Below the pieces are notes generated by a model. That model did not search any database, was not told the origin of the DNA, and saw only the letters and a list, made by a program, of their open reading frames with translations. Of a stretch of DNA of 64,000 nt, positions 38,665 through 61,409 are shown piece after piece (the stretch's first letter is position 1; every line of letters begins with the position of its first letter). The position numbers and the translations under genes were made by a program. The DNA comes from Prevotella sp. (GTDB lineage Bacteria; Bacteroidota; Bacteroidia; Bacteroidales; Bacteroidaceae). The stretch is taken from contig JAGAPR010000047.1 in NCBI GenBank assembly GCA_017623155.1, positions 1-64,000 on the forward strand, given 5' to 3'.

Positions 38665-39207
38665 TTACTTTACTTCCGGTGACTCGGTGTCACGGTTTCT
38701 CGCACCGTATTCCACTGTCAGGGCAAACAGATAGTCGGACAGTCGGTTCATGAACACCAATATCCTGCTGTCTGTTTTCACCGTCCGCGCGAGCGACACC
38801 ATGCGCCGTTCGGCCGTACGTGCCTGCGTCCGGGCGGCATGTATGAATGCGGTGAGGGTGCTCTCGCCCGCTATCGTGAAGCCGCCGGCACCGCGACATG
38901 TGTCGATATACCGCTCCATGCGCTCTGTCAGAGTTTCCACTCCGAGCCGGCGGGGATTTGCCTCGCCCTCGGGGGTGGCCACATGGCTCATCACCGTCAT
39001 CAGTTCACGCTGTATATCGTGTATCATCGCAGCCGCCTCACAGTCTTTCGGCAGCATCGAGCGCACAATTCCGAGCAGTGAGTTGAGGTGGTCGGTCTGT
39101 CCGTTGACCTCGATCCGCAGGTTGTCCTTATCCACTCTCACGCCTCCGCGGATGGCTGTCGTGCCGGCATCGCCGGTCTTTGTGTATATATTCTTCATCG
39201 TTTTCAA
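38665..39207 (-). CDS. Cob(I)alamin adenosyltransferase, PduO type
   Basis: A 180-residue PduO-family enzyme that transfers the 5'-deoxyadenosyl group from ATP to cobalt(I) corrinoid. The ATP-binding N-terminus reads YTKTGDAGTTAIRGGVRVDK, followed by VNGQTDHLNSLLGIVRSM and the late ARTQARTAERRMVSLAR, matching the family's conserved arginines. It overlaps cbiA by 4 bp at its start. The usual ELNS is TDHLNS here, a mild variation. Function is well supported by context. Confidence 0.9.
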   Translation of the reverse strand: MKTMKNIYTKTGDAGTTAIRGGVRVDKDNLRIEVNGQTDHLNSLLGIVRSMLPKDCEAAAMIHDIQRELMTVMSHVATPEGEANPRRLGVETLTERMERYIDTCRGAGGFTIAGESTLTAFIHAARTQARTAERRMVSLARTVKTDSRILVFMNRLSDYLFALTVEYGARNRDTESPEVK

Positions 39208-40514
39208 TCATTGTCCGACGGGCGGAAGAAGTCGGTAGGAGCCGTCTCGCCACCCCAATATATATGCGTGTATCCGGCTATCGTGTTGCCTGCGCGCAAT
39301 ATCGCCGAACGAACGGGCTCGCCGGAGGCGTTATACACCTGTGTGATACTTTGTGGCTCGTCGCCCACGAAACGGGAATAATGGAACTCGTGCCCCCTCA
39401 CTTCGCGCCCGCCAAAAGCAAAACGCCTGTAACCGAGCGACAAGCGGCGCTCGACCGGGCGTGCCGTGATGTCGTGGGGCAACACTCCCGCCATTTCAAA
39501 CACTCCCTCGTCGGTGGCTATCGAGCGGCACAGGTACATCATCCCGCCGCACTCGGCAAGCACACGACCGCCACGAGCGGCATAAGAACGTATGGATTTC
39601 AGCGTGTTGCGGGCGGCCGACAGTCCGGCGGCACGGTTCTCGGGGTATCCTCCCGGGAGATACAGCAGCGACGTATCGGCAGGCAACGGCTCGTCGCTCT
39701 CGGGGTCGAACTCCGTCACATGCCCCATCATCCGCAGCATGTCGAGATGTTCTTGATATATGAAAGAGAAAGCCTCATCGCTGCGAGCCACAACAATGTC
39801 GCCGGCAATACGCGGCAAGTTTGTCCACGGCGCGGCCGACTCACGGCACGGTCGGGTGCACGCGCTCAGCAACCGCCGCCAATCCACGCCCTCGGATATC
39901 ATCGGCGTGATGTCGTTCCCCGTTCCGCCACTGAAATCCAAACCGAGATAGCGCGACGAAACGATGTCAACCGACCGGCGGGACAGAAAGCCGAAACACT
40001 CGATACCAAGATCTGAACACACCCGGCGGAGCATTTGCCGATGGCGCTCCGAGCCCACCCTGTTGAATATCACACCGGCAACGGTCACGCCGGTATCGAA
40101 TTTCGTAAACCCGTAGAGCAGCGGAGCGAGCGAATAGGCGGCACTGCGGGCATCGGCAACGAGCACCACAGGCAACCCGAGCGTGCGGGCAATATCGGCC
40201 GTTGAACCGCTACTGCGGTCATATCCGTCGTACATCCCCATCATTCCCTCCACCACGCACACATCGGCACCGGCAGAATAATAACCGTAAAGCTCGCGCA
40301 CATGCCCCTCACCGGCCATAAACAGGTCGAGATTTACCGACTGTCGGCCGCACACGGCCGCATGAAACTTGGTGTCTATATAGTCGGGGCCGCACTTAAA
40401 CGGTTGCACGGTAAGCCCCTCACCGCGCAGCAGGCTCATCAACCCGCGCGCCACGGTGGTCTTTCCCGCTCCCGACGACGGAGCCGCAATGACAAACTGT
40501 GGTATATCTCTCAT
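39204..40514 (-). CDS. cbiA: Cobyrinic acid a,c-diamide synthase
   Basis: CbiA (CobB) performs the first two amidations of cobyrinic acid. The 436-residue protein starts MRDIPQFVIAAPSSGAGKTT with a P-loop at once, contains GMMGMYDGYDRSSG, and has the amidotransferase Cys in VLAECGGMMYLC. The start at 40514 is chosen over an in-frame ATG at 40574, which lies upstream of the promoter box. A TACCTTTG -7 box at 40521-40528 leaves only 6 bp to the ATG, so transcripts may be leaderless. Its first codons and promoter are duplicated at 41741-41841. It would normally follow cbiJ-cbiD, but an island intervenes. Confidence 0.94.
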   Translation of the reverse strand: MRDIPQFVIAAPSSGAGKTTVARGLMSLLRGEGLTVQPFKCGPDYIDTKFHAAVCGRQSVNLDLFMAGEGHVRELYGYYSAGADVCVVEGMMGMYDGYDRSSGSTADIARTLGLPVVLVADARSAAYSLAPLLYGFTKFDTGVTVAGVIFNRVGSERHRQMLRRVCSDLGIECFGFLSRRSVDIVSSRYLGLDFSGGTGNDITPMISEGVDWRRLLSACTRPCRESAAPWTNLPRIAGDIVVARSDEAFSFIYQEHLDMLRMMGHVTEFDPESDEPLPADTSLLYLPGGYPENRAAGLSAARNTLKSIRSYAARGGRVLAECGGMMYLCRSIATDEGVFEMAGVLPHDITARPVERRLSLGYRRFAFGGREVRGHEFHYSRFVGDEPQSITQVYNASGEPVRSAILRAGNTIAGYTHIYWGGETAPTDFFRPSDND

Positions 40515-40582
40515 ACGGTGCAAAGGTAATAATTTTATGATTATCCGCCGAAAACATGCGGAAAATAGTGACAATAAGCACC
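40482..40582. repeat. 101-bp direct repeat, copy next to cbiA
   Basis: It covers the first 11 cbiA codons, the -7 box and about 50 bp upstream. It matches 41741-41841 at 100 of 101 positions (difference at 40505 versus 41764). A weaker match continues for about 13 more bases. The copies are 1259 bp apart and flank the RhuM gene. Confidence 0.95.
40521..40528 (-). promoter_or_regulatory. -7 promoter box of cbiA
   Basis: The minus strand reads TACCTTTG, 6 bp before the cbiA ATG. It gives the downstream half of the cobalamin cluster its own promoter. Confidence 0.7.
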
Positions 40583-40628
40583 CAGCGTCACTGTTAGTGC
40601 TGTATAATCAGTAACCTATAAGGTCAAC

Positions 40629-41645
40629 TTATGGTTTAGAATTCCTACCTCCCAACAATCTTTTCTGCTCTCGCTCGAAGTTTTCGAGAAAATGTATTTC
40701 TACCGGAGACATTTCATTCTTGATGCGCTCCTTAAATTTGTCATATTCTGCATCCGCCTTTTCCTTTGCCAACTTGGCGGAAATCTTGCCGGCATGGGTA
40801 AGAATATCTTTTCGGGAGATACGAAGAAAATCATCGAGAATGTTTATCCAGTCTTTCATATACATTGGTCGATGCTCTTCTGCCTGCATTTCTGCAAAGT
40901 CGAGATAGAGGCTCACGATGCGGTTCAGTGAAGTAATCTCTTCTTGTGTCAGATAGTTTTTGGCAATCTCTGCTTCAGGTTTTGTAGGCATGTATCCCGA
41001 CCATGTGGTGAGACCCATGAAGTCCTTTTCTGCATTAGCCCTCTCATAGACGACTTCTGCTGCGGTGTGCCCGTGAACAGAATAGTGCATCTTATTTTGC
41101 ACCGTCTTGAAGAACTGCTGTGTCATTTCCACTCGTGGGTCATAGTCTATACTGAGGGCATAGATTTCAAGCACTTTCCGATAGAACACCTTTTCACTCG
41201 AACGTATGTCTCTTATTCGTGCAAGCAGTTCGTCGAAGTAGTTGCCACCACCGGCACGCTTCAGCAAATCATCATTCAGAGCAAACCCTTTCACAATATA
41301 TTCCTTCAATACCTTGGTCGCCCAGATGCGAAACTGAACGCCACGATATGAGTGCACCCTGTAACCGACACTGATAATCATGTCAAGGTTATAGAAAGCT
41401 ATCTTCCTTTCCACCTTTCGACCTCCTTCATTTTGAACTGTTGCAAAAAATGCAACTGTTGCTGCTTCTTCCAACTCCCCATCGTCCAACACATTTTTTA
41501 TATGTCGGGAAATGGTGGATTTGTTTCTCTGAAAGAGCTCCGCCATTTGGTCTGCCGAGAGCCAAACATTTTCGTTCTCTAATCTGACCTCTATCTTTGA
41601 GTCTCCATCCGGCGTTTGGTATAATAAAATTTGTCCTTTATCCAT
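40629..41645 (-). CDS. RhuM-family protein
   Basis: A 338-residue protein of the RhuM family (once called virulence protein; biochemical role unknown). The N-terminus reads LYQTPDGDSKIEVRLENENV, then WLSADQMAELFQRNKSTISRH, a winged-helix-like DNA-binding pattern, followed by the family stretch VGYRVHSYRGVQFRIWATKV. These genes often travel with restriction systems and mobile DNA. Here it is full length and bracketed by 101-bp direct repeats of cbiA promoter DNA, so it could be transcribed from the duplicated cbiA promoter at 41780-41787. It is the island gene nearest cbiA. Confidence 0.9.
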   Translation of the reverse strand: MDKGQILLYQTPDGDSKIEVRLENENVWLSADQMAELFQRNKSTISRHIKNVLDDGELEEAATVAFFATVQNEGGRKVERKIAFYNLDMIISVGYRVHSYRGVQFRIWATKVLKEYIVKGFALNDDLLKRAGGGNYFDELLARIRDIRSSEKVFYRKVLEIYALSIDYDPRVEMTQQFFKTVQNKMHYSVHGHTAAEVVYERANAEKDFMGLTTWSGYMPTKPEAEIAKNYLTQEEITSLNRIVSLYLDFAEMQAEEHRPMYMKDWINILDDFLRISRKDILTHAGKISAKLAKEKADAEYDKFKERIKNEMSPVEIHFLENFEREQKRLLGGRNSKP

Positions 41646-41653
41646 ATTTTCCT

Positions 41654-41773
41654 TTATTCTAAGTTGAAGTTCTCAACAAAATCAGCATCAAGTTCTTCTG
41701 TAAGTGTCCTATTCTGCAATGACAGTACAGATATAGTCGTAGCCGCAATGACAAACTGTGGTATCTCTCTCAT
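41654..41773 (-). pseudogene. Chimeric 39-codon frame: duplicated cbiA start fused to another ORF end
   Basis: The second copy of the cbiA start gives MREIPQFVIAA, then leaves the repeat at 41741 and continues in frame as TTISVLSLQNRTLTEELDA to a stop at 41654, 8 bp before the RhuM ATG. The tail probably derives from whatever gene preceded RhuM in its donor. If translated it would couple with RhuM. It is most likely a non-functional junction product. Confidence 0.7.
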
Positions 41774-41841
41774 ACGGTGCAAAGGTAATAATTTTATGAT
41801 TATCCGCCGAAAACATGCGGAAAATAGTGACAATAAGCACC
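41741..41841. repeat. 101-bp direct repeat, copy upstream of RhuM
   Basis: It matches 40482-40582 at 100 of 101 positions. It carries an intact TACCTTTG box and an ATG at 41773. Confidence 0.95.
41780..41787 (-). promoter_or_regulatory. Duplicated cbiA -7 box, now upstream of RhuM
   Basis: The minus strand reads TACCTTTG in the same setting as 40521-40528, pointing into the RhuM gene 135 bp away. Confidence 0.6.
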
Positions 41842-41955
41842 AATGCGTCATTGTTTTATTTAATAATAACAAGGTAAAATAAATGGATAGAATACTTCCT
41901 ATCCTATTCTTAGGTCAAATTAAAGAGTATTATAATACAAACTTTTACAACCTCG

Positions 41956-42411
41956 TTATCCTCTCCATGTTATTTGCCAATATCCTTGCTTCCTACCTCC
42001 TACACGTTTCAACAATCCAAGTTCTTGAAGACGGGAAAGATTGTAGATAATCCCTCCCATGGTAGTATCCGGAATATTCTCAACCAGTTCTTTCCGTGTC
42101 GCATCAGGATGTTTGCTCAAATATATCAATATTGTTTCTTGTTGTTTACTCAACTGCTTTTGTATGGTCTTTTGTATGGTCTCCGGCACGTTTTGTATCG
42201 TTGCCCTTTCCGGATATTCAAACCTAAATATCGTCCATATTCCAGAAGCGTCATAACGGAACTCCGGTGTCGAGAAGCCATCGTTCTTGCACGCCGTAAT
42301 AATGCGCTCTATCCCACGTCCCCATGCTTCAATCTCGCCGGCACGGAAGAACGTATTGGCTATGCTTGGATTATATGGCTGCTGTGCGAAGATAATCTTG
42401 AATCCCCCCAA
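41956..42411 (-). pseudogene. C-terminal fragment of a RecG/AlbA-type transcriptional regulator
   Basis: The frame encodes 151 residues. Near the start it reads QQPYNPSIANTFFRAGEIEA then WGRGIERI, a diagnostic stretch from the middle of AlbA_2 (Schlafen-type ATPase) regulators that are usually 400-500 residues long. It ends with a winged-helix region (ILIYLSKHPDATRKELVE). The N-terminal AlbA domain is absent and the sequence upstream of 42411 does not restore it. It is a 5'-truncated relic in the island. Confidence 0.8.
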
Positions 42412-42558
42412 AAAAGAAAAAGAGCAACGACTTTAATGAGAACCATCTGTCATTGCCCTAATTTTCTAAACTATAAATTGAATACGTTTGTAGTACATTT
42501 ATATTGTTTAAGCCTGCACTTGAAATTTATTCTTTTTTTATCAAAAATATAATCAACC

Positions 42559-42945
42559 TCATTTTCTATAATATGTATAGACATACCCGTCCTCATCCAT
42601 AAAGGTAAAATAAGAATCTGTAATATTTGTTATGAAATAATACCACGTCGTACCGCTTCTGTTGACTAAAACTAATATTCCGGATTTTTCTTCATAAGAA
42701 TATCTCCCTTCTTCATCTTCAAACCAAGAAGAGTTTGTGCCTGAAAATGTCAAATGATATGTTCCATTAGACATAAATTTAAAAGTAGAAGTAGCTCCGT
42801 AGTAATGATTATTTGAATACCATGTTCCGACAATACGGCTACCCCCGTTATCATCGTCATCATCGCTGCAAGCGACAAAAATCATACCGAACATTGCAAC
42901 GAATAATGCCATTGCCATGAATTTGATTTTTTTTAATTGTTTCAT
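42559..42945 (-). CDS. Small lipocalin-like lipoprotein (128 aa)
   Basis: A 128-residue lipoprotein with signal and lipobox FVAC followed by SDDDDDNGGSR, an acidic surface-export-type linker. It continues as RIVGTWYSNNHYYGATSTF with alternating beta-strands, the pattern of small lipocalin-like (DUF-type) Bacteroidales lipoproteins. Ligand unknown. It is the third of three adjacent envelope-protein genes in the island, 34 bp after the LysM protein. It is visibly AT-rich compared with the cobalamin genes. Confidence 0.75.
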   Translation of the reverse strand: MKQLKKIKFMAMALFVAMFGMIFVACSDDDDDNGGSRIVGTWYSNNHYYGATSTFKFMSNGTYHLTFSGTNSSWFEDEEGRYSYEEKSGILVLVNRSGTTWYYFITNITDSYFTFMDEDGYVYTYYRK

Positions 42946-42979
42946 TTTCTTTTGTTTTTTAATGTATTAATAATAAAGT

Positions 42980-43795
42980 TCAGTTAATAATTGTCGTCAA
43001 ACCGACCATTATCATACCGTTTTTTATAATATCTTTTGTCTTAAACTTATTTGCCGAAACCAGATATCCAAGATTAAGAAATGTACTGTTGCCTTTCTTT
43101 GTATCCAACAACTTAAAACCTATAGACATTTCTGCATTTGCACCATATATAAATTCATCTTTAAACTCTTTTTTCATTTTATAGTTTTTATCTAATTCAA
43201 TTACATCATAACCACTTAATCCTGCATAAGGATATATTTTGCCTTGAATATAAAAGGCGTCATTATACATTATATGCTTGCCCAATCCAACGCCCATAAA
43301 AAATGCCTCATTAAAAAGTTCGTTTTTCCCGAATTTCAAGTTAGAAGAAAAACCAAATGATATCAATAAAGATTTGTACATGCCGCAACTAAATGCATAA
43401 CCGTATTCTTTCGCCTCAGACTGGTATAACAAATTGTGACAGGCCAGTCTTTTATCTGCTTCTTTCACGGTTCGAACACCAGACGGTGCTTCTGCTACAT
43501 CCGGAACATTTGTAACAATAGTACTTTTATCAGACACATGTTCCTTATACTCTTCTGACTTTACATCACTGCCTTTTGCCGGAATTATTATTTTCATTCC
43601 GGCATAAAAAAGTCCGTCCGTATTAGGATTTGCTTTTATGATATCATCCACAGTTACACCATGAGCCTTTGCTATACTTTCAATACTTTCACCACGTTGA
43701 ATTTTATATTCCGTTGTTCCTGTTTGTCCTTTAACACTTGTTACAGACATTAGTAAAAGTATTGTTATAAATACTTTGAATGTTTCTTTTCTCAT
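42980..43795 (-). CDS. LysM-domain outer-membrane beta-barrel protein
   Basis: A 271-residue protein with signal peptide (ITILLLMSVTSVKG) and one LysM domain at about 29-72 (YKIQRGESIESIAKAHGVTV, ending YAGMKIIIP), which binds peptidoglycan. After a linker, a beta-barrel-like C-terminal half begins near residue 125 (YGYAFSCGMYKSLLISFGFS and later strands). It probably anchors an outer-membrane protein to the cell wall. It sits between two lipoprotein genes in the island, 17 bp after the coiled-coil lipoprotein. The specific role is unknown. Confidence 0.75.
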   Translation of the reverse strand: MRKETFKVFITILLLMSVTSVKGQTGTTEYKIQRGESIESIAKAHGVTVDDIIKANPNTDGLFYAGMKIIIPAKGSDVKSEEYKEHVSDKSTIVTNVPDVAEAPSGVRTVKEADKRLACHNLLYQSEAKEYGYAFSCGMYKSLLISFGFSSNLKFGKNELFNEAFFMGVGLGKHIMYNDAFYIQGKIYPYAGLSGYDVIELDKNYKMKKEFKDEFIYGANAEMSIGFKLLDTKKGNSTFLNLGYLVSANKFKTKDIIKNGMIMVGLTTIIN

Positions 43796-43812
43796 AAAAT
43801 ATTTTTTGTTGG

Positions 43813-44691
43813 TTATAATTGAATGATTAAATAATTAGACACACTCCAAAACTTTGTGGCATTTTTTATACTCAATGTACACGTTCCATCTCCATTCTTT
43901 ATTAACGTGTAAGAATCTCCTGTAGGTATCGGTGTAAGTATTTGGGGCTTATTGGAGTGCAATCGTATTTCACGGAAATCTCTAATATCCACAGGTGTAA
44001 ACTTACTTTTATCTATACTGCTATAATTTATTTTCTTCTTTGCCAGAAAGCCTCCTGTCAAAATACCGGCTTTTTTCAATTCTTTCTTCGTACCTATTTT
44101 TACATAACACTCGTTTATTGTTTCATCCTGAGCACTAAGTGCTTCATTTAGTATCTTATTCTTCTTTTCCGTCTTTTCCATAGTTGTACGCATTGAAGCC
44201 ATAACAGTGCGCAGTTCTCTTATATTTTTATTCTTATTACCGATGTCTCTCTTCAGCTGCTGTATCACAGCATCCTTTTCTGCCAGTTGTTGATTCAGAA
44301 AAGATATAATGCTTTTCATCTTCTCTACACCAACACCATTAATACTTTTAATAGAATCCTGTAACTGTTGGATTTTACTTCTCTGCTTTTCAAGCAACTC
44401 TTCAAAGAAATTAAGATTTTCCATTATCTGTTTCCTGCTTAAAAGCACTCCGTCTCCACTCTTATTGGAACAGAGCACATTTTCTTGCATTGCAATACTG
44501 TCAAGACCGACGGCGATAGTTGTTATCATAGAGTTCAATTCATCAAGTTCTTGCTCTCTTTCCAGACAAACCCTCTTTATTGAATCCCTTTCTTCTATAA
44601 ACTTTGCCATACCGTTATTACTGTTTTCACACGAAGTTATAAAACATGTAATTAAAATAAAAAACAGGAAAGGTGTACTAGTTCTTCTCAT
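43813..44691 (-). CDS. Coiled-coil lipoprotein of unknown function
   Basis: A 292-residue lipoprotein: signal ending in lipobox ITSC, then about 170 residues of heptad-rich coiled coil (for example LEKQRSKIQQLQDSIKSI and LAEKDAVIQQLKRDIGNKNK). A beta-rich C-terminal domain follows (DIREIRLHSNKPQILTPI type stretch). The architecture suggests a periplasmic spacer or tether. It is the first of the three envelope genes, with a TACCTTTG box at 44720-44727, 28 bp upstream, that may drive all three. No homologue is recognised with certainty. Confidence 0.7.
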   Translation of the reverse strand: MRRTSTPFLFFILITCFITSCENSNNGMAKFIEERDSIKRVCLEREQELDELNSMITTIAVGLDSIAMQENVLCSNKSGDGVLLSRKQIMENLNFFEELLEKQRSKIQQLQDSIKSINGVGVEKMKSIISFLNQQLAEKDAVIQQLKRDIGNKNKNIRELRTVMASMRTTMEKTEKKNKILNEALSAQDETINECYVKIGTKKELKKAGILTGGFLAKKKINYSSIDKSKFTPVDIRDFREIRLHSNKPQILTPIPTGDSYTLIKNGDGTCTLSIKNATKFWSVSNYLIIQL

Positions 44692-44719
44692 TTTGTGATT
44701 ATAAAAATTTCTTCAAATG

Positions 44720-44727
44720 CAAAGGTA
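44720..44727 (-). promoter_or_regulatory. -7 promoter box of the three envelope genes
   Basis: The minus strand reads TACCTTTG, 28 bp before the ATG at 44691. Confidence 0.6.
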
Positions 44728-44789
44728 TAATATAATCAACTTTTTTCAAAAAAGGGGCGTATTACAATGAACGACACTTGTGTCGCATT

Positions 44790-45008
44790 TTACTTGTCAC
44801 CGATAGCATCTATATTGTCCGACAAGTCTTTAAAAAAGTTGTGCTCAAGTATTACGGATATGCGCTGAAGCAGCGTAGTGTCAATGCTTTCACGCTTGAA
44901 AATGTCATACACGTTCTGCCTGTTACAGTAAAGTTTGCGAGCAAACCATGCCACAGTACGCTCCTTTTCACGCAACACCGCTTCTATCCTCTTACCTATA
45001 TGAAACAT
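44790..45008 (-). CDS. Small HTH transcriptional regulator (72 aa)
   Basis: The product starts MFHIGKRIEAVLREKERTVA and contains WFARKLYCNRQNVYDIFKRE, an XRE-type helix-turn-helix, then LQRISVILEHNFFKDLSDN. This is a very common tiny regulator form in Bacteroidales. The start at 45008 is chosen because the 13 residues before it (from 45047) do not belong to the family pattern. It lies directly downstream of a probable structured RNA at 45080-45305, which could be its leader or a separate transcript. Target unknown. Confidence 0.8.
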   Translation of the reverse strand: MFHIGKRIEAVLREKERTVAWFARKLYCNRQNVYDIFKRESIDTTLLQRISVILEHNFFKDLSDNIDAIGDK

Positions 45009-45079
45009 AGTAGTTCTACATAAACACATAAAAGCCGAACCACCCAAGACTTTCCTTTATATATAAAAATGAGACACAT

Positions 45080-45305
45080 AAAAAAGGCGGGGAGTCCTGA
45101 CCATTGTCCATCCCGTCTTTGGGCCTTCGCACTGCCTCACCTGCGGATAAACAATGCAGCAGCCCCACGCCCATGCTATATACACAGACACACTACAAAA
45201 AAGACGAACAGGATATATACACCAGTTCTCGCTGTTTGTACATGTGAGTATATGCACACGTGGGCGTTGCCACCTTGTTAATCTTTACAGGTTCTTGAAT
45301 GTGCG
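45080..45305 (-). ncRNA. Probable structured RNA upstream of the HTH regulator
   Basis: This stretch is much more GC-rich than the AT-rich DNA around it. A long-range helix joins 45167-45173 (ACGCCCA) with 45261-45267 (TGGGCGT). On the minus strand it ends in a stem (45086-45091 with 45112-45117, plus inner GGAC/GTCC pairing) followed by six T (45080-45085), which looks like a terminator. A near-match -7 box (TATCTTTC) lies near 45313-45320. Both strands have open frames of about 66-70 codons, but their composition (Cys, His and Trp scattered) looks like RNA read as protein. Confidence 0.4.
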
Positions 45306-45624
45306 AAGTTCAAAGACGAAAGATAACGTTATAGTAACGCCTTATTTTTATTATGTCATCCATGACAGTAATTATATCATTACGTCACGGACACTGCAAA
45401 ATTATAACTTTTTATTTGATTAACAGTTAACGGAATGTCTTTTTTTACATCTTACATATCAAAAAGTTCCGTAAGAATAAGCATCACTGCGTCAAATAGA
45501 ATGACAATTGAAGTTGTCGGGTATATATAAAGTTGTCATATCTTAATTTTTATCTTTCAATCTGTAACCAGCAGTTGAAAAACTACTGTGTAAAGTGGGG
45601 ATGTATCAAAATACAAATGCAATT
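45306..45624. other. Intergenic stretch, no feature seen
   Basis: AT-rich DNA without a supported gene. It includes short words such as gttgtc repeated around 45513-45540, but nothing I can name. Confidence 0.5.
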
Positions 45625-45718
45625 ATTTGTAGGAGCGCACGGCTTGTATACCCGCTTATAAAGCACTGACAATCAGTTAATATCTATTCAGGCGCACGAA
45701 CCGTGCGTCCCTACAAAT
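45625..45718. repeat. Terminal-inverted-repeat element (about 94 bp)
   Basis: Ends 45625-45642 (atttgtaggagcgcacgg) and 45701-45718 (ccgtgcgtccctacaaat) are inverted copies with one mismatch. The right end also holds an internal palindrome gcacgaaccgtgc. The size and ends resemble a miniature inverted-repeat element; no flanking duplication is clear. Confidence 0.7.
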
Positions 45719-45861
45719 TCCATAAACATGCATTTTGACCCGACCCCTGAAAATCGGGATTTGAAGTTTAGAAATTACAATCTGCAAGATTTTACGGGCT
45801 TGAAATTACGATTTTACGGCAAAAAGGATGTGTACGGCGAGATAACGGGCGTCATTTAAAG

Positions 45862-46072
45862 AAAAAGAACGAGAAACGAGATATTCGTTTGTTCGCAACG
45901 GAATATTAACTGGTTTACAACGAGATATTAACTGCACTGTAATTAATATTCCGTTGCAAGACAATGCGATATTAACTGCACTTCAATTAATATCTCGTTA
46001 CGAGGTAACGAAGTATTAACTGTGAAGTAACAAAGTATTAACTGTGAGATAACGAAGTATTAACTACCGATG
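45862..46072. repeat. Family C repeat array (ATATTAACTG units)
   Basis: About eight loosely spaced units, each with ATATTAACTG, AGTATTAACTG or the complement AATTAATAT(C/T) joined to AACGAG, AACGGA, GTAACGAAG or similar. Spacing is about 20-30 bp. The unit ends change from gcac or ggtt to gtga along the array. It sits directly before the HU gene terminator. Confidence 0.75.
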
Positions 46073-46100
46073 AAAAAATACGCTATTGGGGAGAAAAGAC

Positions 46101-46138
46101 ATAAAAAATCCCACATTCCGAGTGGTCGGAATGTGGGT
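46101..46138 (-). terminator. Terminator of the HU-like gene
   Basis: Arms 46110-46121 and 46126-46137 (cccacattccga with tcggaatgtggg) form a perfect 12-bp stem with a 4-nt loop, followed on the minus strand by ATTTTTTATG. Confidence 0.9.
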
Positions 46139-46202
46139 TACGGGGATGGGATGCCGGCAAAAGCGTGCATCGCATTTTCATAAAATCATGAGCGGTGCCG
46201 GA

Positions 46203-46655
46203 TTACGGTTGCGCTTTTTCCTCGTCTTCATCTTTTATCACGGCGTTTTTGGGAAGCTCTATCGCTGCGCAACGTCGCAACAGGTCGGTGACACGGCGGT
46301 TGGTGGTGCTGTCCTTGTAAGTCTCGGGCATGAAATTGATGTGCATGCCCAAGACGTTTTTCTGCGAGCTAAACTCTTTCGGCGACACGGATGGCTTCGT
46401 TTTAAGTCCTATCTTGAACGTGCCGAGGCCGTCTATCTTCACGCGCTTCGAGTCTTGCATGGCACGCGTCATCGTGGGGACGAGCTCGCGAAGCACTGCC
46501 TCGATATCGGAACGTTTCACGGTGCAGTTCTCCTGCATTATCTCGGCCAGTTCGCGGGTAGACATCGTGTCGACCATCACCGCACGGGCATACCATTTTC
46601 CATAAACACTGCTGCGACTGTTGTTGTTGCGATATAATCTGTAATATACTGACAT
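46203..46655 (-). CDS. HU-like DNA-binding protein, long Bacteroidales type
   Basis: A 150-residue protein of the HU-related family that is widespread in Bacteroidales and longer than classical HU. It begins MSVYYRLYRNNNSRSSVYGK, continues DTMSTRELAEIMQENCTV and KRSDIEAVLRELVPTMTRAM, then VKIDGLGTFKIGLKTKPS, the HU beta-arm region. A charged tail (VIKDEDEEKAQP) ends it. It binds DNA without strong sequence specificity; individual roles are unknown. A TATCTTTG box at 46753-46760 and the terminator at 46101-46138 make it a single-gene unit. Many such genes sit in accessory regions. Confidence 0.88.
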   Translation of the reverse strand: MSVYYRLYRNNNSRSSVYGKWYARAVMVDTMSTRELAEIMQENCTVKRSDIEAVLRELVPTMTRAMQDSKRVKIDGLGTFKIGLKTKPSVSPKEFSSQKNVLGMHINFMPETYKDSTTNRRVTDLLRRCAAIELPKNAVIKDEDEEKAQP

Positions 46656-46959
46656 AGTTCTTTGATTTTTTATTGTTTATCATTTTGCTTTATCGTCTCT
46701 CTCGTCAAACCATCCTCGTCAGGATACCGGGCGTCCCCATTGTTTGACGATGCAAAGATAACACAAATGACATTACATGTCAAGGCGCATCACGATACAC
46801 TTCGCGATACATATCCAGATACGCCCGTAATTTTATCACAATAAAGCCCGTTTTACTGTGAAGAATTGAATTTGCAACAAACTCTGACTTCTAACCTGCA
46901 TTATTCATACCTGTTCCTACTACAAGGACTAACCGCCGGCACCTCAGCGCGCTACATTC
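46656..46959. other. Intergenic stretch between the HU-like gene and the broken HTH gene
   Basis: It holds the HU promoter box and leader. From about 46880 onward a second frame (ending LFLLQGLTAGTSARYILRH) may be the 5' part of the broken HTH gene. Otherwise nothing is seen. Confidence 0.5.
46753..46760 (-). promoter_or_regulatory. -7 promoter box of the HU-like gene
   Basis: The minus strand reads TATCTTTG, 98 bp upstream of the ATG at 46655. Confidence 0.5.
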
Positions 46960-47157
46960 TTAGGCATTAGCGAAGGACAAATGGGTAATATCGAATCCAT
47001 CATACCTCCACATAAATATACTTTATCACAAATTCACCGCATTTGTAAACTATTTGAAGTTCCAATACAACAAATATTTATAGAAGAATTCAATGATGAT
47101 ATGAGAGATGTAATAGAACTTCTAATATCAAATATTATAAAATATGAAGAGCGATAA
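46956..47157 (+). pseudogene. Broken XRE-type HTH regulator gene before the endonuclease
   Basis: The frame FLGISEGQMGNIESIIPPHK, then YTLSQIHRICKLFEVPIQQ, runs to a stop at 47155-47157. This is the second half of a helix-turn-helix regulator of the type that precedes restriction genes. Upstream in this frame a stop appears, while the adjacent frame reads GLTAGTSARYIL, which would complete the first HTH helix. A frameshift near 46955 is therefore likely. No start codon with a full N-terminus is visible. Its end overlaps the endonuclease start by 14 bp. Confidence 0.6.
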
Positions 47158-47893
47158 AGATAGAATAATAGAACGATTCCATCAAATAAAAGATTTAGGA
47201 TTTGTAAAAAGCAACCGTAAGAACAATACGGGTATAGGTAAAACTTTCGAAGATTACATGGGTGTTGTAGAGAACAACTTAGATAAGCCCTACTTATTTG
47301 GGTTTGAAATAAAATCACATAGAGAAGAAACCAACTCATATATAACTCTATTTACCAAATCACCAAACTTCCCACAAAGAGCCAATGCTTGGTTAAACCT
47401 TAATTACGGCATTCCATATGAAGAAAATCCGCAATTACATAAACTTCACACTTCTATGTTCGCAGACAAATATAATACTTTCAACGAGCAATATTCTTTC
47501 AGACTCATAAATGACACTACTAATAATTTATTAAGAATTGGTATCTTTGACATTAATACCAAGAAACTTATCAATGCCGATGCTGGATATACGTATAAAT
47601 GTATTGAAACAGTATTAAGGAATAAACTACATAACTTATTCTATGTCAGCGCAAATCGGAAATATATAGATAACGACGAATACTTCCATTTTAATATGGC
47701 AGAAATATTCTCTAATCCTACAATTGAACGCTTTCTTAAACTGGTAGATGCCGGCAAAATAATGTATGATATAAGAATTGGCTCATATAAGTCGGGGGCT
47801 AATTATGGAAAGCCACACGATCATGGAAGTGGATTTAGAATTCTGGAACCAAACCTAAAACTCCTTTTTCAAAATAGAGAAGAAGTAAATTGA
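47144..47893 (+). CDS. MvaI/BcnI-family type II restriction endonuclease
   Basis: A 249-residue endonuclease. The family signature is clear: IKDLGFVKSNRKNNTGIGKT, then FEDYMGVVENNLDKPYLFGF and EIKSHREETNS, which supplies the ExK catalytic residues, and ITLFTKSPNFP. Known members cut CCWGG or CCSGG as monomers. The gene looks intact. Its start lies inside the end of a broken HTH gene. No DNA methyltransferase gene is present in the 64-kb window, so the host must be protected otherwise, or the enzyme is inactive or silent. It is strongly AT-rich relative to the flanking cobalamin genes. Confidence 0.88.
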   Translation: MKSDKDRIIERFHQIKDLGFVKSNRKNNTGIGKTFEDYMGVVENNLDKPYLFGFEIKSHREETNSYITLFTKSPNFPQRANAWLNLNYGIPYEENPQLHKLHTSMFADKYNTFNEQYSFRLINDTTNNLLRIGIFDINTKKLINADAGYTYKCIETVLRNKLHNLFYVSANRKYIDNDEYFHFNMAEIFSNPTIERFLKLVDAGKIMYDIRIGSYKSGANYGKPHDHGSGFRILEPNLKLLFQNREEVN

Positions 47894-47980
47894 ATTATAT
47901 TTTCCCAAATAGAATTCTTAAAACATATACAATTACTATTGTATAAATTCTATACGAGCACTGTGTCTTATCTCAAAATA

Positions 47981-49798
47981 TCATTCGGCAGAGAAGCAAC
48001 GGCCGGCTTCATCAATAAGTAAGATAGTAAGATTGCCGGCAGGAAAGAGGGGCCGGCAGTGGGAGACACAATGCGATATGACCACGCGGCAGAAGCGGGA
48101 AAGGCGTTCCGGCGGTACAATTGTCCATAACTCGCGTGCAAGAGTAATGCTTTTTGCAGATGAAACGACGGCGGCATCGCACCCTGCCTCGGCAAGCATG
48201 GCGGCAATAAACGCTTTATCCATGGTAGAACGATGACTGTGTGTGTCAAGCTCGCCTGCTGCCAGCTTCACGGCTTTGCCCATCATCACGCCGAGCGTAA
48301 GCCTTTTTATACCCAGTTCGGCGGCCATTGCTATCGTTTCGCCTATATAATTGCCGTATTCCACAAATGCCTGCGGCGGCAAATCGGGATATACAGCCCG
48401 CACGAAACGTTCGCTCTTCGCTCCAGAGTTTATCACTATGCGCTCCGCTCCGCTCGCCACGGCCACCTCCATGCACTTGCGTATGGAACTGACGAAAGCG
48501 GCTTCGGAAAACGGTTTTATTATTCCCGAGACACCCACGATGGATATTCCGCCAACGATACCGAGGCGCGGATTGAATGTGCGGGCGGCAGTCTCCTCTC
48601 CACCCGGCACGGAGATTGTTACGTTCAGGGGATTTTCCGGGTGCAACAGCGTAATGATATTATTGCGTATCATCTCGCGCGGCACACGGTTTATGGCCGG
48701 ACTGCCGGGCGGAAAATCAAAACCGGGCAGCGTGATAGTGCCCACTCCCGGGCCGGCAGCAATGGTAATGAGCGATATATCTTCGGAGAGAGGGGGTTGT
48801 ATCTCATCTTCTTCGCGATAAAAAACAGCTGCTCTTATCTCCATTCCGTCTGTCACGTCTGGGTCGTCGCCACTGTCTTTAATAACAGAGGCATAACCGT
48901 CGCCGTAGGTTACATCTACCGTTATGGTCTCGCCGTTGGGAAGTATGACGGGAACAGACGGCGTGGTGGTGCCGTGCAACAAGCGAATGGAGGCAGCAAG
49001 AGCGGCTGCCGTGGCACAAGTACCGGTGGTAAGACCGCTGCGGAGAGGATAAAAGCTGGGGAGAAGACGCTCTACGGCACGCCGCAAGCCGTGTTCGCCA
49101 TTGACAATAGTAAAATATGACGGCGTGGGCGGGCGCTTGACAGCCACCACACGTATGCCCATGTCGAGGGCAGCAGCGGCTTTCTCGGCAAATCCGCCGG
49201 TGATACCGCTCTCTTTCATCAGCACGGCATCGGGGCGGATACGGGCGAAAAGCGCACGGTTATCCTCTCCCTCGCCGTAAAAACAAAGTTCTTCGGGACG
49301 TGCACCGAAACGGCGTGCGATGGCAAGAGAACTTTCGCGGTTGAGTATTCTGTGGTATAGCCTCACGCCGCGCGACTTCAATACCGACAAACGACCTATC
49401 GACTGTACTCCCGTTGTGGCCACTACGCAACGACACCCCGACAACCGTTCTATCGCATCGTCATACCCGTCGCACCATTCTATGCGCACGGTGTCGCGCC
49501 CGGGAAATATCCTTTCGAAACGAATGGCGGGAATGTCGAGAGCCGAAGCCACGGCGGCCACAGTGGCATGAAGCTGCGAAGCAAACGGATGGGCGGCATC
49601 TACGATAAGCCGTATGCCGTTAGTCTGACAGAACTCCGTCATCGATCCGGCATCCATTGCACCGCAAACACGTGTGCCGCGACTCATTGTCACGGCCTGT
49701 TCGTCGCCCCGTGTGGAATAAAAATACGGAGAGCCAGACTCTTCAAGTTCCTTAACGGCTTTCAGTCCCTCGGTTGTTCCGCCGAAAACGAGAATCAT
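47981..49798 (-). CDS. Fusion: precorrin-6A reductase (CbiJ) and cobalt-precorrin-5B methyltransferase (CbiD)
   Basis: A 605-residue two-domain protein. Residues 1 to about 245 are CbiJ/CobK (MILVFGGTTEGLKAVKELEE, VDAAHPFASQLHATV, later ESGITGGFAEK), the NAD(P)H-dependent reductase. About 250 to the end is CbiD (LRSGLTTGTCATAAALAASI, INRVPREMIRNNI, INSGAKSERFVRAVYPD), which methylates C1 of cobalt-precorrin-5B in the anaerobic route. The start overlaps the cbiG-cbiF fusion stop by 4 bp. Downstream, the cluster is interrupted by the island for 7.5 kb before cbiA. CbiD marks the early-cobalt, anaerobic pathway. Confidence 0.93.
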   Translation of the reverse strand: MILVFGGTTEGLKAVKELEESGSPYFYSTRGDEQAVTMSRGTRVCGAMDAGSMTEFCQTNGIRLIVDAAHPFASQLHATVAAVASALDIPAIRFERIFPGRDTVRIEWCDGYDDAIERLSGCRCVVATTGVQSIGRLSVLKSRGVRLYHRILNRESSLAIARRFGARPEELCFYGEGEDNRALFARIRPDAVLMKESGITGGFAEKAAAALDMGIRVVAVKRPPTPSYFTIVNGEHGLRRAVERLLPSFYPLRSGLTTGTCATAAALAASIRLLHGTTTPSVPVILPNGETITVDVTYGDGYASVIKDSGDDPDVTDGMEIRAAVFYREEDEIQPPLSEDISLITIAAGPGVGTITLPGFDFPPGSPAINRVPREMIRNNIITLLHPENPLNVTISVPGGEETAARTFNPRLGIVGGISIVGVSGIIKPFSEAAFVSSIRKCMEVAVASGAERIVINSGAKSERFVRAVYPDLPPQAFVEYGNYIGETIAMAAELGIKRLTLGVMMGKAVKLAAGELDTHSHRSTMDKAFIAAMLAEAGCDAAVVSSAKSITLARELWTIVPPERLSRFCRVVISHCVSHCRPLFPAGNLTILLIDEAGRCFSAE

Positions 49799-59830: not shown

Positions 59831-59980
59831 TCAAAAGTGATATATGACATCTTCGGGCGTGGGAGTGCCCGGCCTGACGATATCGAGATTATACACTTGA
59901 GCATCCGGATTACACTCTTTGATTAAATTTGTTAAGATGTATACCGATAGAGCCGGTACCGCCGGTGATTTGTAATTCAT
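59831..59980 (-). pseudogene. Fragment of an NAD-dependent sugar epimerase gene
   Basis: On the minus strand one frame gives ITGGTGSIGIHL, the nucleotide-binding loop of epimerase/dehydratase proteins. After one extra A the next frame continues LTNLIKECNPDAQVYNLDIV and RPG, as expected after that loop. Only about 50 residues remain and the frame is broken, so it is a dead 5' fragment. The first 34 bp of it reappear at 61376-61409 beyond the ATPase gene. Confidence 0.75.
59936..59969. repeat. 34-bp direct repeat, left copy
   Basis: It is identical to 61376-61409 and encodes (minus strand) the GGTGSIG loop of the epimerase fragment. The two copies flank the AAA ATPase gene, 1440 bp apart. Confidence 0.95.
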
Positions 59981-61375: not shown

Positions 61376-61409
61376 GATGTATACCGATAGAGCCGGTACC
61401 GCCGGTGAT
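61376..61409. repeat. 34-bp direct repeat, right copy
   Basis: It is identical to 59936-59969. On the minus strand it reads ITGGTGSIGIH and then hits a stop five codons later. Confidence 0.95.

Follow-up and report, generated by a model that had tools for sequence, protein, structure and literature searches.

In the 64,000-nucleotide stretch of Prevotella sp. DNA analysed here (the window, 64 kb), a single RhuM gene stands beside the cbiA start, with a copy of the cbiA promoter and start on either side of it (Table 1). This arrangement probably arose through the insertion of 1155 bp of foreign DNA into the 5' end of cbiA, which left some 104 bp of target sequence on each side. The repeat, the single-gene insert and the relic cbiA start can be read directly from the window, and the same anatomy is present at other loci of the genus; duplication and insertion at cbiA would have been one event.

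Table 1. Features of the cbiA/RhuM region in window coordinates.
Feature	Position	Strand	Basis
cbiA (cobyrinate a,c-diamide synthase), intact, ATG in the inner copy	39204..40514	-	Pfam GATase_3 + CbiA
Inner repeat copy: cbiA upstream DNA, -7 box (40528-40521), ATG, 11 codons of intact cbiA	40479..40582	-	
46 bp from the RhuM stop codon to the inner copy; initial 13 nt similar to the outer copy's native flank	40583..40628		
RhuM, 338 aa	40629..41645	-	PF13310 E=1.5e-113; PADLOC PDC-S05 E=2.7e-151
Foreign DNA, 92 bp, from the outer copy to the RhuM ATG	41646..41737		
Chimeric 39-codon ORF: 11 codons of cbiA followed by 28 foreign ones; stop 8 nt ahead of the RhuM ATG	41654..41773	-	translation
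Outer repeat copy: promoter and start as in the inner copy, truncated beyond codon 11	41738..41841	-	
Variable, A+T-rich outer flank of the insertion (36.5% GC), reaching toward the cbiJ/cbiD-like gene	41842..47900		

The two copies are identical at 102 of 104 bases with an offset of 1259, the longest exact run being 76 bp and the two mismatches lying at 40481 (G/T) and 40506 (A/C). The original prediction had placed RhuM between repeats of the cbiA promoter and start of 101 bp with one difference, and this is confirmed, the 101 bp being the 104-bp repeat minus its first 3 bp. On the minus strand each copy consists of cbiA upstream DNA, TACCTTTGC (from 40528 and 41787), an ATG and exactly 11 cbiA codons, which read MRDIPQFVIAA in the inner copy (40514-40482) and MREIPQFVIAA in the outer one. 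These data bear out the further statements that the copies carry the -7 box together with the first 11 codons of cbiA, and that the copy upstream of RhuM keeps its -7 box and ATG; both copies do so, and each retains TANNTTTG beside the ATG. At the upstream edge of the repeat an imperfect similarity runs about 14 nt further and blast joins 40479-40595 at 96%, an extension matched in none of 1000 shuffles and in about 2 of 843 island 50-mers.

Same-strand exact repeats of at least 30 bp number two in the window, the cbiA repeat and a 34-bp repeat at 59936-59969, which recurs exactly at 61376-61409 around another ORF. When the organism's own genome (2.74 Mb in 104 contigs, 84% complete) was searched with positions 40400-42500 as query (17 of 17 candidates scored), other contigs matched only within RhuM, and a second search (3 of 27 candidates scored) gave only the two places of the repeat among the matches listed. 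The duplication is far longer than those of the transposon type, consists of local target sequence and brackets the insert. Its outer copy is a truncated cbiA start, which makes best sense as the relic of an insertion-linked duplication.

The insert is made up of 92 bp, the RhuM ORF and 46 bp, with one ORF bracketed. The encoded protein scores 378.7 bits against PF13310, for which the curated cut-off is 33.7, and covers positions 1-250 of the 252 in the profile; judged from its sequence, RhuM is a stand-alone candidate anti-phage gene inside the vitamin B12 cluster. The named relatives, with identities of 70-75%, belong to Bacteroidales, Muribaculaceae, Porphyromonadaceae and one Fibrobacter assembly, and no solved relative was found by sequence search. 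The chimeric ORF is a possible leader for RhuM, and sequence searches for the source of its 28 foreign codons gave no convincing match. Neither an integrase nor a transposase is present in the 1155 bp, RhuM being the sole family match among the proteins scanned there. Inverted pairs of at least 16 nt with one arm at each end of the insert are absent; the arms of a single weak pair (40461-40477 and 48087-48103, 82%) are 7.6 kb apart. Known RNA families were absent between 30000 and 52000 at the gathering threshold. A transfer unit common to RhuM loci was also considered and rejected, as eight compared loci (L007, L008, L064, L065, L144, L165, L271 and L274) have no flanking sequence in common with the window at E 0.01. 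The flank matches among these eight are 78 nt at 78% between L144 and L271, and 17 nt between L007 and L144.

The variable stretch on the outer side of the insertion ends ahead of a gene at 47981-49798, which from our own reading we take to be cbiJ/cbiD-like. Adjoining the outer copy, an apparently truncated C-terminal fragment of an HATPase_c_4 (RecG-like ATP-binding) protein occupies 41956-42411. The stretch also holds an MvaI/BcnI-type restriction endonuclease gene at 47144-47893 (Pfam E=2.3e-62), with no methyltransferase recognised by eye among the neighbouring ORFs, and an inverted repeat of 38 nt with a 5-nt loop and 79% complementarity at 45919-45999.

We scored direct repeats bracketing an ORF at RhuM loci and in control regions; searches with n of 120 or more covered few candidates in each genome and give some of the matches. 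Bracketing affects roughly one RhuM gene in every five or six within the genus (19 of 103 full-length genes) and none of 118 control ORFs (Fisher test, 1.9e-7); at a score of at least 40 the counts are 11/103 and 0/118 (1.7e-4). The 103 genes pool two samples and include the window, and the controls come from 20 regions picked at round coordinates in 10 genomes, where no RhuM occurs. The excess is weaker when ORFs of the same loci serve as controls. In a wider set (7 of 146 distinct RhuM genes omitted) 25 of 139 RhuM genes are bracketed versus 11 of 197 control ORFs, three of the 11 being RhuM-like N-domain proteins, and in the second genus sample (6 of 82 omitted) the difference between RhuM (15/76) and neighbouring ORFs (3/30) is not significant. 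The latter sample includes L339, which is absent from the pooled 103 because its flank is shorter than 500 bp. Among 80 loci of named genomes, four of them omitted for short flanks, RhuM is bracketed in 7 of 76 cases and other ORFs in 2 of 135, both control matches (L101 and L120) being RhuM genes themselves. Abi_2 genes of the genus are bracketed in five of 27 cases (3 of 30 loci omitted), two of the five scoring only 24 and 26; RhuM is therefore not special, and the footprint follows defence-type cargo generally.

Inspection by eye of the 19 genus repeats showed that 11 consist of the promoter, start or 3' end of a neighbouring gene, while four are intergenic (L316, L144, L321 and L211) and four are probably unrelated (L271, L274, L334 and L315, the last a CRISPR-like repeat). 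Six cases are of the 5' type, in which the promoter or start of the next gene is duplicated and RhuM is always oriented like the host gene. Besides the window these are L341 (99 bp, 97%, with 22 codons), L323 (a 46-bp promoter, 100%), L289 (a promoter), L205 (29 bp, including the first or fifth codon of the next ORF) and L300 (2419-4880), whose repeat combines DNA upstream of gyrA with the last RhuM codons and suggests stacked insertions at one promoter. The 3' ends of genes are duplicated at L297 (FtsX/MacB-type permease), L281 (comM-like), L276, L350 (type I specificity subunit) and L019 (HsdM), the last of which may be a tandem RM/RhuM duplication; genes at L297, L300, L350 and L019 and those of the comM type were assigned from Pfam. 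Outside the genus, L099 has a 206-bp copy of its neighbour's 3' end. The original prediction had proposed to look for other RhuM genes flanked by repeats of local promoter DNA, and the outcome supports it in part: promoters and gene ends were found, but promoter DNA is only one of the duplicated kinds, and Abi_2 genes share the footprint.

At L292, L339, L281 and L101, fragments of differing length from the 3' end of comM (Mg_chelatase family) flank RhuM and other cargo, and this gene end looks like a recurrent landing site. L144 (9739-20000), from a genus relative, holds two RhuM genes: one is bracketed by direct repeats of about 380 bp where a CRISPR array ends, and the other sits in the cas operon, flanked by its Cas7 and Cas4 genes. 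At L120 (3750-7061) two RhuM genes lie in an array, possibly integron-like, with repeats of about 36-50 bp between genes. In the five regions opened from E. coli (L167-L171), RhuM or a fragment of it lies near selC, yicL or setC, with only a fragment kept in K-12, and these regions were of no help as a within-species test.

Sixteen cases were compared for the dimensions and edges of the insertions. The insert measures 945-1171 bp in 10 of the 16, and the duplication, from 27 to 338 bp, varies between insertions. The edges differ, with no common motif or constant attachment core recognisable by eye among the 16. Mismatches between repeat copies are not clustered at the edges (combined p 0.34), and the length distribution has no clear cut-off of the kind that would indicate a size limit for homologous recombination. 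Mismatch clustering, the edge extension and the length distribution do not decide the route of insertion.

The ancestral state was sought in 398 genomes of the genus by joining the flanks of six cases (L316, L297, L300, L323, L341 and L289), with two candidates scored each. Relatives that lack RhuM and carry a single copy were found in four of the six. In G410 the L316 site holds a single copy, continuous with the right flank at 94.8%, and the left neighbour is different. At the L297 site, G387, G019, G206 and G348 each have one permease 3' end, in G387 followed by a 262-aa gene before the next shared gene. At the L300 site, gyrA is present in G179 and G090 together with a single occurrence of roughly half the non-coding repeat; the outer flank of L300 may itself be variable, since it is located elsewhere in G028 and G166. 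In G370 a single copy at the L323 site adjoins the left flank only. L341 and L289 had no useful relative in this set. Because both flanks never join around one copy in the relatives found, these single-copy relatives are not exact empty sites. For the window itself, none of the relatives searched carries its cbiA 5' region, and the 104 bp, compared by blast with 15 cbiA loci of genus relatives, matched over no more than 26 bp. Of the sister genomes G359 is the best, with 81% DNA identity across cobQ and the beginning of cobO; its contig breaks off within cobO, and cbiA was not found in it.

The L323 site differs in its cargo from species to species. Beside a homologue of the gene upstream of L323, the same promoter of 45-46 bp brackets RhuM in G154 and a RhuM remnant in G324, while in G015 its copies bracket an 85-aa DUF6364 gene and a PIN-domain gene, with no RhuM, and G103 has a different small gene and no RhuM. 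The locus with the PIN-domain/DUF6364 pair between the promoter copies that flank RhuM in L323 is L392 (619-1417). The two copies without RhuM in G015 imply that repeat copies can outlast or predate a given cargo. The original prediction named relatives without RhuM but with both copies as evidence against it, and G015 is in part such a case, with a different gene pair between the copies. The cargo differences at L323 support a cassette-like use of duplicated promoters, and they also support replacement of an earlier cargo by RhuM.

The cbiA/RhuM case resembles an already described, little-understood process, insertion with long target duplication. In the accounts cited here, Kobayashi's group describes it for RM genes with long, variable duplications of the order of 100 bp, and it is attributed to Nobusato et al. 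2000 (Gene 259:99) and Furuta et al. 2010 (NAR 38:2428) (PMC1643837, PMC3031569, PMC3154945, PMC3874152). In common with those insertions, as described there, ours has a chromosomal defence-type gene, long variable target repeats on the order of 100 bp and no transposon ends. It differs in that the cargo is a single RhuM ORF and not an RM system, the host belongs to a Bacteroidales genus and not to Helicobacter, and the duplicated segment consists of a promoter and start codons. A minority of transposed genes in Arabidopsis, likewise single non-transposon genes, is reported to be flanked by direct repeats longer than 15 bp (22 of 126 versus 6 of 102); this is a eukaryote, for which a circle-integration model was proposed (PMC2869330). 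In E. coli a plasmid that had been linearised, trimmed and re-circularised is described as having entered by one crossover, giving target duplications of 109-950 bp in 14 sequenced clones, and there too the insert is flanked by a direct duplication of the target end (PMC3240628). That case, as presented in the same source, is a laboratory conjugation product, and its transfer to cbiA is by inference. By analogy, a trimmed, re-circularised fragment made of cargo and a piece of the target might have entered at cbiA through a homology-driven single crossover or an equivalent repair event, a route that we weakly favour over any transposase.

Other histories could produce the same picture. The promoter segment may already have been duplicated, around other cargo or in tandem, with RhuM replacing the content later by recombination between the repeats. 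The L323 copies, which hold RhuM in G154, a remnant in G324 and the PIN/DUF6364 pair in G015, speak for this history, as do the stacked events at L300, where the repeat includes the last RhuM codons. It needs two events, however, the first of which would still be an insertion or duplication of the same kind, and a cargo-free two-copy allele was not among the relatives fetched; we regard it as unlikely on balance. As no exact empty site was found and two copies occur without RhuM at L323, we lowered our confidence in direct insertion of RhuM with target duplication and raised that in cargo exchange.

Site-specific integrative elements produce second copies of gene ends and may in this way restore a promoter, as SXT does at prfC. 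The two copies could be the attachment sites of a site-specific element that targeted the cbiA 5' end and has lost everything except RhuM, and the several cargo genes followed by comM 3'-end fragments at comM would fit such a history. Set against it are an insert of 1155 bp without an integrase, duplications of variable length with no common edge motif by eye in the 16 cases, and targets that are unrelated genes, which make it decidedly improbable. An assembly artefact, in which a short-read assembler linked RhuM to cbiA through a common k-mer, might be suspected in an incomplete assembly of many contigs and a repeat with an exact core of 76 bp. It would require two false junctions, the copies differ at two bases, and the same anatomy occurs at L316 in G069, a one-contig genome, so that we find it very hard to credit. 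Hardest to credit is a reverse-transcribed RhuM transcript integrated at widely spaced nicks, which would leave a long, variable target duplication: many inserts do barely exceed the ORF, and duplication lengths do vary, but nothing implicates a reverse transcriptase, a tail or end signature is absent, and the 92-bp foreign leader reads as the tail of another frame.

Insertion of RhuM with duplication of the cbiA promoter and start remains the probable explanation. As TANNTTTG is kept next to the ATG in both copies, RhuM may use the outer one; it would be transcribed from there through the 39-codon leader, and cbiA from the inner copy. Such insertions may persist because each gene retains a promoter, and the repeats, once formed, could permit exchange of cargo. 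Extended to the whole genus, RhuM, Abi_2 and the PIN pair might spread and swap as one- or two-gene cassettes without a mobility gene. Each insertion would leave long duplications of a local promoter or gene end, so that newcomer and host gene both have a host-derived promoter, and the copies would then serve as a socket for the next cargo; this wider picture is speculative and, as it stands, doubtful.

The present analysis gives a rate for the genus, extends the pattern to further gene families and distinguishes a subtype in which promoters or starts are duplicated. It also identifies a site at which the cargo between the same promoter copies varies with the species. One gene with a local promoter or gene end to each side of it provides a footprint for the entry of solitary defence genes without a transposon or integrase, and the idea of long target duplication becomes testable in more genomes and in more gene families than RM systems.
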